Source: Longibaculum muris (lineage in GTDB: Bacteria > Bacillota_I > Bacilli_A > Erysipelotrichales > Coprobacillaceae). Taken from it: DNA of 42,722 nt. This document shows, one piece after another, positions 7,879 to 42,722 of this stretch. The notes below the pieces were generated by a model. It saw only the letters and a program-made list of their open reading frames with translations, was not told the origin of the DNA and did no database searches. Within the stretch, counting starts at the first letter, position 1. The number at the start of each line of letters is the position of its first letter. The stretch spans positions 1-42,722 of the forward strand of contig NZ_SMCQ01000026.1 of assembly GCF_004343035.1 (NCBI RefSeq). Reading direction: 5' to 3'. A program made the position numbers and the translations under genes.

Positions 7879-9321
7879 CTACCCCTCCCTCTTATATTGA
7901 TTTTTAAAGTTAAGTGCATTTTCTAAAGCATAAGCGCAATTTAAGACTGTTTGTTCTTCAAAAATACGGCCAGATAAATTCACAGCAATTGGCATCCCAT
8001 CAACAAAACCTGATGGTAAAGATAAACTTGGCGTTCCTGCAAAATTAGCAAGCGAAAGATGATTTTCTAAAATCAAATATTCATCGCTTAAACGATCATC
8101 ATATGCTTCATCTACCTTAGGAGCAATACTTCCCCCATTAGGTGTTAAAATAATATCATAATCCTGATAAATTTTATTTAATTCTTCAACAATTAAACGT
8201 CTTACTCTTTGGGCTTTTCTAAACATTCTTTCTTGATTTTCTGTCGCAAGTGCTAAGTTTCCAAGAATAAAACGACGCTTAATATGATCACCAAAACCAT
8301 GTGTACGAGAATTAATCATAACATCATCTGTGGTTTTTCCTGGTTGACGATTTCCATATTTAATTCCATCTAAACAAGAATGGTTACTTGTTGCTTCTGA
8401 ATTGGCAATAATTGTATATGTAGGAAGCAATGTACGCATTAATTGTGTTGGCATAGTTACATTTTCAACAATAGCTCCCAAATTTTTTAATGTTTCAACA
8501 ATACTTTCAAAATTTGCTTTGATTTCTGGATTTCTAATTTCATCACTAACTGATGTCAAAACAGCAATTTTTAATCCTTTAATATCATCAGTTAAGTTTT
8601 CTAAATAATGTGGTACTTCCTTAAAGCTTGAAGTCATATCACGATTATCACGACCTGCCATTGCTTCAGTCACAATCGCCATATCTCTGACATTTCTTGT
8701 AAAAGCCCCTACTGTATCTAAGCTTGAAGCATAAGGAATCACACCGTAACGTGAAATACGTCCCCATGTTGGTTTAAATCCAACAATACCACAAAATCCT
8801 GCAGGTTTACGGATTGAATCTCCTGTATCACTACCTAAAGCAAATGGTACAACTCCACTAGCAACCAAAGCCGCACTTCCACCTGATGAACCTCCCGCAA
8901 TACGTGAAGTATCCCAAGGATTATAAACCGGACCCGTTAAAGCAGACTTATTTGTTCCACCCATTGCTAATTCATCCATAGAAGCTTTTCCAACTAAACA
9001 AACTCCTTGTTTACTTAATAAGTCCACAACATGAGCGTTATAAACAGGTACATAATCTTCCAACATACGACTTGAAGCTGTGGTTTTAATTCCTTTTGTA
9101 TTATAATTATCTTTTAATACATAAGGGATTCCATTTAATAAGTTTTCAAAATGTGCTTCTTTTAAATCAGCATATGCTTTTTCCTTAGTAATTGTTACAA
9201 AAGCATTTAATCTTTTTTGTTGTAATTCTACTTCTTCAAATAATTCATCATAATATGCTTTAGGATCAATAGCCTTAGATGCAAATAATTGATGAAGTTC
9301 CTCAATACTATATTGAATCAT
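7879..9321 (-). CDS. gatA: Asp-tRNA(Asn)/Glu-tRNA(Gln) amidotransferase subunit A
   Basis: The glutaminase subunit of GatCAB, an amidase-signature enzyme that releases ammonia from glutamine for the B subunit. The catalytic triad is visible: Lys70 in VLKDN, the cis-Ser in GGSSGGS (Ser145/146), and nucleophile Ser169 in SDTGDSIRKPA. The more common wording of the last motif is TGGSIRQPA; the TGDSIRKPA form is seen in related amidases and keeps the serine. The length of 480 residues is standard. The ATG abuts the gatC stop codon (TAAATG). Confidence 0.97.
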   Translation of the reverse strand: MIQYSIEELHQLFASKAIDPKAYYDELFEEVELQQKRLNAFVTITKEKAYADLKEAHFENLLNGIPYVLKDNYNTKGIKTTASSRMLEDYVPVYNAHVVDLLSKQGVCLVGKASMDELAMGGTNKSALTGPVYNPWDTSRIAGGSSGGSAALVASGVVPFALGSDTGDSIRKPAGFCGIVGFKPTWGRISRYGVIPYASSLDTVGAFTRNVRDMAIVTEAMAGRDNRDMTSSFKEVPHYLENLTDDIKGLKIAVLTSVSDEIRNPEIKANFESIVETLKNLGAIVENVTMPTQLMRTLLPTYTIIANSEATSNHSCLDGIKYGNRQPGKTTDDVMINSRTHGFGDHIKRRFILGNLALATENQERMFRKAQRVRRLIVEELNKIYQDYDIILTPNGGSIAPKVDEAYDDRLSDEYLILENHLSLANFAGTPSLSLPSGFVDGMPIAVNLSGRIFEEQTVLNCAYALENALNFKNQYKREG

Positions 9322-39184: not shown

Positions 39185-39214
39185 AAAAAGAACCCTATAG
39201 AAAATCTGGTTCTT
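39183..39214 (-). terminator. Terminator between the transposase remnants and ndk
   Basis: A perfect 7-bp stem (39188-39194 with 39208-39214) and 13-base loop followed by seven Ts on the minus strand. It would stop transcription coming from the IS remnants into ndk. Confidence 0.7.
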
Positions 39215-39239
39215 ACTCGGTTATGGGTAGAATAACTAT

Positions 39240-39548
39240 CTAAACAGTACAAGAAATTGTACTGTTTTTTTGCTTTATCAAGTCGACTAGTTTGAAATCT
39301 GTATTATTCATTAAAAATGGTACATAACATTTCTTAAACAGGTTGACTAATTTGCTTCTTCCATATAAAATACGTTTGAGGAGTTTGAATTTGTTGTTGT
39401 TACCTTCAACAAATCCAGAACTATATGGGAAGGATATTGTGTTCTTGATCGGGGCAATATCTTTTTCTATTCCATTTATAAATCCATTAACTTTGGAATC
39501 TCTAAATTCATTAATGAATTTATCCAGTCTATCTAGAGAAGATGTCCC
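39240..39548 (-). pseudogene. ISL3-type transposase, C-terminal fragment
   Basis: The minus-strand frame encodes the last ~100 residues of an ISL3 family transposase. The recognisable part runs from FINEFRDSKVNGFINGIEK through PYSSGFVEGNNNKFKLLKR, which carries the final catalytic Glu region, and ILYGRSKLVNLFKKC. The N-terminal two-thirds are missing. Upstream of about 39548 the frame stays open only because it is antisense to another transposase, so the junction lies around 39543-39548. Inactive. Confidence 0.75.
39242..39271 (+). terminator. Plus-strand terminator at the ISL3 fragment end
   Basis: A perfect 11-bp stem (39242-39252 with 39257-39267), GAAA loop and seven Ts (39265-39271) on the plus strand, overlapping the stop of the ISL3 fragment. 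It would block transcription entering the element from outside, as IS ends often do. Confidence 0.75.
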
Positions 39549-40325
39549 CATTGTGGCAATAAGCTTTCTCTTGTCAGGTCTCGCAGTGGCTTTGACGTCT
39601 ATAAATGTCCAAACAAGAATTGTCCTCACTTCAAGTCAGAACTCAAGAAACTTTTCAAAGAAGACAAGAAGAAATATAAAATGAATCCTTCTCAGTTTTC
39701 TCTTCACTATATCACTCGTGTCTTTAATGCATCGCTGGACAAGCTTGAGAAGTTCCAACATAAAATAGAACCATCAAAAATAGATTTATCAAGAATCCGC
39801 AATTCCAAGCATATCCTCGGTCTTGTTTTAACATATTACATCAACTATGGTCTTTCACTCAGAAAAACCGCATTGATCCTTTATGAAATCCATGATATCA
39901 AAATATCTCATCAGACTATTGCCAACTATGCTCAGGCTGCCAGTCATCTCCTTTTTCCATGGATGGACAACTATAAGCATAATTTCAACTCATATCAATG
40001 TGGCGATGAAACCTATGTTAAAGTTCTAAGCAAGAAAGCCTATGTCTTCTTCATGTGTGATGTCAAGAAGAAAATCATCACTTCTTATAGAATCTACATG
40101 AAACGTGACACATTCAGTGCCATTGATGCTTTCTACTCAGTCCTTAGAAAATTCAAGAAAATACCAGAGGATCTTGAATTCGTTGTTGATGGGAACCCAA
40201 TCTATAAGGCAGCACAACAGTATTTCCAATTAAAACGCATCTTTTTTAAGGTAACACAGGTCATTGGACTTACGAATGATGATCCTGTATCAAAGCAACA
40301 TCGTCCAGCCAAACCAACATATTAA
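39543..40325 (+). pseudogene. DDE transposase remnant lacking both ends
   Basis: A plus-strand frame of about 260 codons without stops. It starts with a zinc-finger-like part (CPHCGNKL, then KCPNKNCPHF), followed by HYITRVF, a helix-turn-helix region (GLSLRKTALILYEIHDIKISHQTIANYA), and the catalytic Asp residues in CGDETYVKV and FVVDGNPIY. It ends at QVIGLTNDDPVSKQHRPAK plus four residues, exactly before the segment that normally carries the last catalytic Glu (IIERLN-like). The N-terminus is cut at the junction with the ISL3 fragment. The internal ATG at 39681 is not the true start. The two ends were lost by deletion or insertion; inactive. Confidence 0.75.
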
Positions 40326-40342
40326 AATATATTGCTATTGTT

Positions 40343-41599
40343 CTATTTTTTATTATTACATTTCAATATAACTTGTGATATAACAATACTATTTTCCATC
40401 TTAATAAAAAAACTACCATCATATTTTTCAGCATAATATTGAATTATTTTTAAACCATAACCATGTCCCACAGTTTTTTGAGTATTTAAACTTAATACCC
40501 TATCTGTTGTATTAGTAACTGTAATTAATAATGTCTCATCATTTTTTATTATTTGAATATTTACATTTGGAAATGCTATATCAATGTTTTGACAAGCATT
40601 ATCAATTAGATTAAACAGTATTGTTGAAAAATGTTTCTCATTGATGTTAATATAATCAACACTTACATCATAAGAAAATCTGATTGAAGGATATTGATTT
40701 TTTTTCAAATTAAATATAATATCAATTAATTGAATATTGGTCGTTGGTTCAAAAACTTTTATGTCCGTAATATCTGTATATAAATCATTAATATATTCTT
40801 TAACATCATACAAATTATTCATAGTTTTTAATATTTGTAAATGATTTTTTATATCATGTTTTACTTCCATTACTTTTTCATTTTCATTTCTAAAACTATC
40901 TATCATTATTTCAACATTATCGTCAAAGATATTTGCAATTGAAAGATTTTCATTATCTAATTGAAGAACTATTGATCTATTTAAAAAGTAAAGCAATGTA
41001 ATCCATAAAATTACAAATGTAAAAAATATAAAAACAATAAAAGGTATATTTAGTTCTATTAAATGTAACCCAAAAAAAATCAAAAAAACAAAAACCGTAA
41101 TAACATTTATTACATTATAGACTATACAATTTTCTTTTATTAAAATTTCAGAAGGTATGATTTTTAATCTTTCAAGCATTTTGTATAGAAAATAACTGAT
41201 TATTAAATATAAAAAAACTGAAAAAACTCTAAAACCATAATTGGTATACGTTCCTAAAATATTAATATTGACCAAAAAAAATATATATGAAAAACAATTT
41301 ATTGTAATTGAATACACACAAAAAAAGCAACTTGTGTAGAATAATATATAAAAACAAAGTGCATTATTATATATGCAAAGCATTATAAAGTCACAGAGTA
41401 TTACTAAAATATTTGAAATTAAATAATTATCAAAATCAATAATATAATCTCCCGTAATAAAAAAATTAATTAGAGCATATATACATAAGAAAATCACTGT
41501 ATATATTTTACTTCTTTCTTGATTTAAGTACGGTTTAATAGTTATAGTTAAACATAAAATATATAAATAACAGAAAAAATACTCAGATAATAATCTCAT
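40343..41599 (-). CDS. GHKL-type sensor histidine kinase, AgrC-like
   Basis: A 418-residue quorum-sensing-type kinase. Six or seven hydrophobic segments occupy about the first 205 residues, the receptor layout of AgrC/VirS/ComD kinases. The phospho-His is in KVMEVKHDIKNHL. The GHKL ATPase domain shows NLIDNACQN (N box) and HGYGLKIIQYY (G box). GGAG lies 7 bases before the ATG, inside the regulator gene, which it overlaps by 17 bases. Codon use is even more AT-rich than the core genome. It would phosphorylate the LytTR regulator upstream in response to an external peptide, but no intact peptide gene is present. Confidence 0.9.
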   Translation of the reverse strand: MRLLSEYFFCYLYILCLTITIKPYLNQERSKIYTVIFLCIYALINFFITGDYIIDFDNYLISNILVILCDFIMLCIYNNALCFYILFYTSCFFCVYSITINCFSYIFFLVNINILGTYTNYGFRVFSVFLYLIISYFLYKMLERLKIIPSEILIKENCIVYNVINVITVFVFLIFFGLHLIELNIPFIVFIFFTFVILWITLLYFLNRSIVLQLDNENLSIANIFDDNVEIMIDSFRNENEKVMEVKHDIKNHLQILKTMNNLYDVKEYINDLYTDITDIKVFEPTTNIQLIDIIFNLKKNQYPSIRFSYDVSVDYININEKHFSTILFNLIDNACQNIDIAFPNVNIQIIKNDETLLITVTNTTDRVLSLNTQKTVGHGYGLKIIQYYAEKYDGSFFIKMENSIVISQVILKCNNKK

Positions 41600-42272
41600 G
41601 TTTTTTCTCCAAAAAATAAACGTTTTTAACTTCTTTTAGACGCCTTGCACTTATTTTTAAAGTATAGTCTAAATCTCTTAAATAAAGATTGTTATTATCA
41701 ATTCCAATTATTCTATGCTTATTGATTAATATATCACGATCACAAAAAATAAACATATCCTCTAATTTTTTAGATAATTCTTGAATTCCATAACCTGTGA
41801 TAATGTAATCATTCTTCTCCAGCTTAATACAAATTGTTTTTCTTCTTATATATTGTAAATATATAATATCTTTTATAAATATATCGACAACACCTTTATC
41901 ACTTTTAACACTCATGGTTTTTTCTTCAAATATTTGTTTTATTATACTTTTAATTGTTTCAAGAAATATTTCTTCAGAATCAGATTTTTCTATAAAAGCA
42001 TACACATTCTTTCCAAAAGCTTTTTTCATATAAAAATCATAGGATGTCATAAAAACAATATTTTCAGTTAAATTATTTTTTGCAAAATCCAATCCATTTT
42101 CATCAATGAGATCAATATCTAATATAATTAAATTAAATAAAACTTTGCTGCATTTTAACGAACTTGTATCCTCAAAAGAATATGTATTAATTTCGAACTC
42201 AGATATTTTACTTAATCTTTGGACTATTAACTCTCGATATTCTTTTTGATCATCTACAATTGCGATATTCAT
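41583..42272 (-). CDS. LytTR-family response regulator, AgrA-like
   Basis: A 229-residue regulator. The receiver domain starts AIVDDQKEY, with acidic residues at 7-8 and phosphoacceptor Asp52 in IILDIDLIDENG. The C-terminal LytTR DNA-binding domain covers about 130-225 (DIIYLQYIRRKTICIKL, then DILINKHRIIGIDNNNLYL). The usual HRS of LytTR domains is replaced by DRD here. I start at the ATG at 42270-42272, with AAGGAGG 8 bases upstream; a longer in-frame reading lies before that site. Pairs with the GHKL kinase downstream. Confidence 0.9.
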   Translation of the reverse strand: MNIAIVDDQKEYRELIVQRLSKISEFEINTYSFEDTSSLKCSKVLFNLIILDIDLIDENGLDFAKNNLTENIVFMTSYDFYMKKAFGKNVYAFIEKSDSEEIFLETIKSIIKQIFEEKTMSVKSDKGVVDIFIKDIIYLQYIRRKTICIKLEKNDYIITGYGIQELSKKLEDMFIFCDRDILINKHRIIGIDNNNLYLRDLDYTLKISARRLKEVKNVYFLEKKHEIII

Positions 42273-42337
42273 ATATATTTCCTCCTTGTTTATAATCACT
42301 AAAGCAAAGGATAGAAAAAAGAACTAATGAAAAAAAA

Positions 42338-42454
42338 TCAATATAATTGACTTATTATTAATTCTAGTCCAAATCTCAATGCGTTTTTATCTTTAATTTT
42401 TATGATTCCTTTTTCTACAAAATTATTAACAATTATTTCACAAATTTTACTCAT
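42338..42454 (-). pseudogene. Probable agrB stump (38 codons)
   Basis: A minus-strand frame with GAGGGG 5 bases before the ATG and a strong promoter upstream. It encodes a 38-residue peptide that reads like the cytoplasmic N-terminus of AgrB, the membrane protease that processes the Agr signal peptide: an amphipathic helix, KGIIKIKDKNAL, then RFGLELIISQL. In intact AgrB this GLE-containing stretch leads straight into the first membrane helix. Here a TGA stops it, followed by 12 more hydrophobic codons (FFFISSFFYPLL) and another stop. The rest of AgrB and any AgrD are missing. An intact but unrelated small protein is the alternative. Confidence 0.5.
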
Positions 42455-42487
42455 ATTTACCCCTCATTCTACATAAATATTTTAAAT

Positions 42488-42517
42488 ATTATATCACAAC
42501 AAAAATATTATTGTAAA
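42488..42517 (-). promoter_or_regulatory. Strong promoter of the agr-like locus
   Basis: TTTACA (42512-42517), an 18-base spacer and TGA-extended TATAAT (42488-42496) on the minus strand, about 35 bases before the agrB-like stump. No other good promoter is seen before the regulator and kinase, so it probably drives them too. Confidence 0.65.
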
Positions 42518-42638: not shown

Positions 42639-42689
42639 AACCTCCCAGTAGACAGTGTAAATAATTAAACACTGATACGGGAGGTTTTT
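42639..42689 (+). repeat. Hairpin at the left end of an IS3-like element, masking a ribosome site
   Basis: A two-part inverted repeat: AACCTCCC (42639-42646) with GGGAGGTT (42679-42686), and inside it CAGTGT (42653-42658) with ACACTG (42669-42674). The 3' arm contains GGGAGG, the ribosome site of the transposase start at 42693. Five Ts follow. The exact IS border is not determined. Confidence 0.55.
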
Positions 42690-42692
42690 ATA

Positions 42693-42722
42693 TTGGGAAG
42701 AAAAAATAAATATTCAAAAGAA
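42693..42722 (+). CDS. IS3-family transposase OrfA, 5' end only
   Basis: A frame opening with TTG at 42693-42695 runs off the window: M-GRKNKYSKE. This is a common opening of IS3/IS150-group OrfA helix-turn-helix proteins. GGGAGG lies 8 bases upstream, inside the hairpin. Only 10 codons are visible, so the family is inferred from this signature and the hairpin alone. Confidence 0.55.
   Translation, partial: MGRKNKYSKE

Follow-up and report, generated by a model that had tools for sequence, protein, structure and literature searches.

A receiver pair beside a deleted agrB: a decayed agr-like locus in Longibaculum muris

Known agr systems and the locus in the window

The agr quorum-sensing operon, agrBDCA, is known from staphylococci and other Firmicutes. 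In Staphylococcus aureus, agr frameshifts occur in more than 5% of genomes, agrC being the most affected gene, and they were found to be common and short-lived (PMC8768832). In Clostridioides difficile, the Agr1 system is made of agrB1-agrD1 without agrC and agrA (PMC8534292).

The window analysed here, a stretch of 42,722 nucleotides from Longibaculum muris, contains a locus that resembles the agr operon by N- and C-terminal pieces of AgrB, a LytTR regulator and a GHKL kinase with a membrane part, and by a LytTR-type direct repeat with 21-bp spacing that precedes related agrD genes. It is a decayed member of this known kind of system, with a gene order unlike agrBDCA: its intact relatives read agrB-regulator-kinase-agrD, with agrD last. 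In addition, the window agrB is internally deleted and agrD is missing from the locus. Like the agr-defective strains of S. aureus, the window has an agr operon that lost function naturally, but most frameshifts are gathered there by agrC, whereas in the window the loss concerns the gene that makes the signal and spares the receiver. In the same way, the sender and receiver halves stand apart in C. difficile Agr1, which is the mirror image of the present case, the sender being alone there and the receiver alone in the window.

The locus most probably descends from an agrB-LytTR regulator-GHKL kinase-agrD operon, which is found intact in the family genomes G028 and G036. That such a descendant lost its sender by deletion and kept its receiver, and that an AgrD-like gene on another contig (C5) is the probable partner, is given a probability of about 0.85. 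The locus is a clear natural case of peptide quorum sensing minus the signal-making enzyme, with the receiver kept and with a parallel in a relative. If such receivers still work, gut bacteria could answer the signals of their neighbours without sending any. As a sequence finding, however, it is mostly ordinary gene decay. Comparisons were made across 43 genomes of the host's bacterial family, with one genome per species and a single genome for the host genus; G000 designates the genome of L. muris itself.

The agrB remnant

A 38-codon ATG frame at positions 42338-42454 of the reverse strand encodes MSKICEIIVNNFVEKGIIKIKDKNALRFGLELIISQLY and ends with the stop codon TGA. An AgrB profile made with 30 AgrB sequences from the host's family gave this stump 23.8 bits over profile positions 4-40, and the stump was aligned from the AgrB start. 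Chance resemblance was ruled out, as none of 5000 shuffled stump sequences reached this score, their maximum being 10.2 bits. With the closest relative removed from the profile, the stump still scored 19.5 bits, compared to a shuffle maximum of 10.4. The Pfam AgrB model (PF04647) aligned residues 6-37 in register with its positions 2-33, with an E-value of 0.033 and 14 bits, which is below its cut-off of 23 bits. The stump is 46% identical to the N-terminus of the G028 AgrB over 37 residues and, among the 43 family genomes, its best matches outside its own genome were the N-termini of full-length AgrB proteins, in G028 (44%) and G013 (41%). On the basis of the profile score, of the shuffles and of the score obtained without the closest relative, 42338-42454 is confirmed as an AgrB N-terminus, a homologous fragment. 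An initial annotation, made from the letters alone, had described an agr-like locus whose agrB seemed reduced to a stump resembling the AgrB N-terminus and had proposed the profile search as a check; the family profile bears out the resemblance. The same annotation had placed the TGA where the first membrane helix should begin, and the frame does stop after its 38 codons, upstream of the first helix of the aligned AgrB relatives, thus containing none of the several helices of an AgrB.

The C-terminal end of agrB was found in the next frame, where it extends into the 5' end of the response regulator gene. Read in the frame predicted by the corresponding overlap in G028, positions 42250-42348 of the reverse strand encode NYIDFFSLVLFSILCFSDYKQGGNIYEYRNCR followed by a stop codon, and the G028 AgrB ends with QYIHLYSLTLFLVLCLGNVTFGGEEHKHSSCG and a stop codon. 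Both the overlap and the register match residues 148-179 of the G028 protein. Because the ribosome site and the codons of the regulator itself partly determine the last residues of the remnant, these residues were left unscored and only the 21 codons before them were compared. These 21 codons gave a BLOSUM62 score of 41 with 8 identical residues, against 32 for the best of 2503 T-matched segments of the window used as a control. For the inner core of 16 codons, the observed score was reached by none of 5000 dinucleotide shuffles.

The gene has hence kept 37 N-terminal and about 32 C-terminal codons that are mutually out of frame. About 110 codons are gone, corresponding to G028 residues 38-147 with the catalytic His74 and Cys81 (G028 numbering), and the starts of agrB and of the regulator are 182 bp apart in the window, where G028 and G036 have about 517 and 500 bp, respectively. 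Since the AgrB C-terminal end persists out of frame, the loss of agrB is an internal deletion, and the window agrB is shown to be an internal-deletion remnant and not a small gene. Decay, which had been offered at first as an alternative, is therefore what happened to agrB. The deletion removed some 320-335 bp from the middle of the gene, including the codons for the catalytic His and Cys, and fused the 37 N-terminal codons to the last 32 in a different frame, so that the window gene can no longer yield AgrB. The TGA is no more than the first stop past the deletion junction. Read-through or recoding of this codon was ruled out, as the AgrB C-terminus resumes in another frame and as TGA ends 7 window frames of at least 150 codons.

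Upstream of the stump, a promoter-like site, TTTACA-18-TATAAT, was identified by consensus scan only at 42488-42517 of the reverse strand. It matches 11 of 12 consensus bases and has an extended TG, and GAGGGG is located 5 nt upstream of the stump ATG, in agreement with the strong promoter and ribosome site noted at the outset. Such good expression signals would suit a 38-residue peptide that is a functional small protein in its own right, a role that had also been envisaged. Nevertheless, the promoter and ribosome site were inherited from agrB, the AgrB C-terminus that adjoins the 38 codons out of frame marks them as a deletion product, and a peptide search found no comparable AgrB stump in the 42 other family genomes, which led to the rejection of a small functional gene. 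The claim of a role for the short peptide is thus unsupported and very improbable. The old agrB promoter may still drive the regulator and the kinase and, as this promoter survives along with a ribosome site proper to the regulator and with both receiver genes, the receiver half is predicted to be expressible.

The receiver genes and the place of agrD

The LytTR regulator and GHKL kinase had been called intact, and the domain searches agree. The AgrA-like response regulator, encoded at 41583-42272 of the reverse strand, matched the Pfam LytTR domain with 40.5 bits and the receiver domain (Response_reg) with 32.1 bits, both above cut-off, and is 40% identical to the G028 regulator, which follows an intact agrB. 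The AgrC-like sensor kinase, encoded at 40343-41599 of the same strand, matched HATPase_c_5 above cut-off with 40.4 bits. It is 40% identical to the G028 kinase, with H248, N330, D333, N334, G380 and G382 invariant, and thereby retains the phospho-acceptor histidine (His248), the N box and the G box. The regulator retains the phospho-acceptor Asp region and a Lys that is invariant among relatives. Together, the two genes span 647 codons without interruption, and all residues that are invariant among the aligned relatives are conserved in them. Judged by its sequence, the pair could work; its relatives, at about 40% identity, are too distant for dN/dS.

The order agrB-regulator-kinase-agrD was found intact in two other genera, represented by G028 and G036. 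In G028 (contig C133, locus L031), which is the closest relative with a syntenic locus, an AgrB of 179 residues overlaps the regulator start and is followed by the regulator, the kinase and an AgrD-like peptide of 32 residues, MKLINKIANTLICQVKKSNYNCSPLGFYKPKK. Close relatives of the regulator are present in only 4 of 315 genomes of the order. In the family genome G009, a stop-interrupted AgrB helix sequence (14.1 bits, E 0.006) precedes the regulator, and the decayed agrB is followed by the regulator, the kinase and the AgrD-like peptide MVLIKKVARIMIERVKETNYNCSPAGFYKPKKLFKKD. This stop-broken AgrB, beside a regulator, kinase and AgrD-like peptide that are all present, means that agrB decay with retention of the receiver has occurred at least one further time, and G009 shows the same loss independently. 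The regulator tree places the window beside G028 at no more than 85/69 and hence does not settle the order of the agrB losses. The regulator sequence alone, used as query, gave no match to the window locus in named genomes; with the alignment as query, the search returned G009 and otherwise distant LytTR regulators. Viral contigs likewise contained no match to the locus.

Given the gene order in G028 and G036, agrD is expected behind the window kinase. No agrD was found in the window, and the position that agrD has in the relatives contains a transposase fragment (39681-40325, forward strand; DDE_Tnp_IS240, 27.5 bits) that is cut at its C-terminus, ends 17 bases from the kinase stop codon and has no second copy in the genome. 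This broken transposase occupies the place of agrD. An ISL3-type transposase remnant with an IS end is located at 39208-39629 of the reverse strand (DDE_Tnp_ISL3, 27.8 bits). Window positions 39208-39270 are identical over 63 bp to C5:6521-6583, a copy that lies 1.7 kb from the AgrD-like gene of contig C5. The shared sequence is probably an ISL3 end, and it shows IS traffic at both places, not a reciprocal break. A single split element as the source of the two ISL3 pieces was unsupported, because their orientations are unlike those of one broken copy. The contig itself ends in an apparent IS element at 42640-42722, with an inverted repeat and then the start of a frame, LGRKNKYSKE.

An AgrD-like gene on contig C5 and the role of the receiver

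The initial statement that no agrD is visible is right for the window, but the genome has an AgrD-like gene on another contig. A genome search with the G028 peptide as query found an AgrD-like peptide, MKLLKKITAMIVGYVIKSDYCCSPMGYYKPKK, at C5:4771-4869 on the reverse strand, with 56% identity and an E-value of 7e-7. The C5 peptide had no match to the AgrD model TIGR04223 at E of at most 1, and the G028 peptide reached 13.9 bits with this model, below the 19-bit cut-off. The C5 peptide is called AgrD-like on account of its similarity to the G028 peptide and of position, this close relative following agrB, regulator and kinase in G028. AgrD of this type is present in only 4 of the 43 family genomes (G000, G009, G028 and G036) and, in three of them, it is right behind the kinase.

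The G009 agrD promoter contains a perfect direct repeat, ACGTTCGTTGC, with 21-bp spacing. A direct repeat so spaced has the layout of LytTR binding sites. A loose box pattern, fixed in advance on the agrD promoters of G009 and G028, was then searched in the L. muris genome and gave 11 matches there compared to 17 for the reversed control, that is, no genome-wide enrichment. One of these matches, ACATTTGATG-N11-ACGCTCGATG, which has the LytTR-type spacing of 21 bp, ends 62 bp upstream of the ATG of the C5 peptide. From the counts, a match within 150 bp upstream of this gene would arise by chance in about 3 of 10,000 such searches. The C5 peptide gene heads a peptide-modification operon, in which an ACP-like protein and a peptide of 27 residues are encoded together with a frameshifted S8 protease, which continues into a TIGR04066-like part, and with an ABC transporter. 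At C5:2486-4274 (L120), the QhpE-like S8 protease that precedes the TIGR04066-like domain is frameshifted in a TATATATATA run, a TA repeat, and its two halves match adjoining parts of one profile; this split may reflect a pseudogene, phase variation or a sequencing error. The C5 AgrD-like gene is probably the former or present partner of the window receiver, and a regulator-kinase pair on contig C6 could be an alternative partner of the peptide.

A search of the genome for other agrBD copies, also proposed at the start, found a single intact agrB, on contig C29, in a separate agrD-agrB-regulator locus. Its AgrD is a proper one, with 32 bits for TIGR04223 against the 19-bit cut-off, and is unlike the C5 peptide. 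For this signal, the cell would most likely lack a sender and have an intact receiver, unless the C29 AgrB processes the C5 peptide.

The present role of the receiver can be read in several ways, which concern that role only and are all compatible with the deletion of agrB. The whole locus may be dying, the receiver having become neutral without agrB and agrD and being merely unbroken so far. This is plausible though tentative: IS remnants lie on the downstream side and a relative of the regulator is a pseudogene in G032 (C4:117727-118140), but the receiver genes are uninterrupted over all their codons and keep each invariant residue. The same completeness, signature residues included, would be expected if selection kept the regulator and kinase to sense the cyclic peptides of others after the sender functions were lost. 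An independent relative, G009, also lost agrB and kept its receiver, and related species encode similar peptides of the form CSP-x-G-[FY]-Y. Yet the genome has its own AgrD-like gene on C5 and one intact AgrB, which leaves room for self-signalling, and receivers also decay once alone, as seen with the G032 pseudogene, so that a receiver maintained for foreign peptides is rather unlikely. Since an AgrD-like gene with a LytTR-type box is present on C5, listening only to others is not the sole reading.

A working system could also be split over several contigs, the C29 AgrB processing the C5 peptide, the window kinase sensing it and the regulator driving the C5 operon. The LytTR-type repeat with its 21-bp spacing upstream of the C5 gene is consistent with such an arrangement, as is the occurrence of this AgrD type only in genomes with related regulator-kinase pairs. 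However, selectivity for the cognate AgrD is the rule among AgrB enzymes, the C29 AgrB adjoins a very different AgrD of its own, and a frameshift interrupts the S8 protease gene in the C5 operon. A split system of this sort is therefore unlikely. A further proposal combines these elements: the receiver would have outlived its own AgrB and, through the LytTR-type box, would remotely control the C5 AgrD-like gene and its operon, switched by the peptides of other gut bacteria. We regard it as improbable.

Regulator-kinase pairs without an adjoining agrB were found in L. muris itself (C6) and in G032 (C4). The regions C6:28000-40000 (L027) and C4:319000-330000 of G032 (L090) contain such a pair without agrB or agrD, common to two genera; behind the pair lies a gene for a membrane protein of about 360 residues, with a threonine dehydratase gene nearby. 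Finally, the agr locus of G009 is flanked by two direct copies of a 70-codon membrane-protein gene (L091:3576-3788 and 8272-8484), which are identical at 182 of 213 bases.
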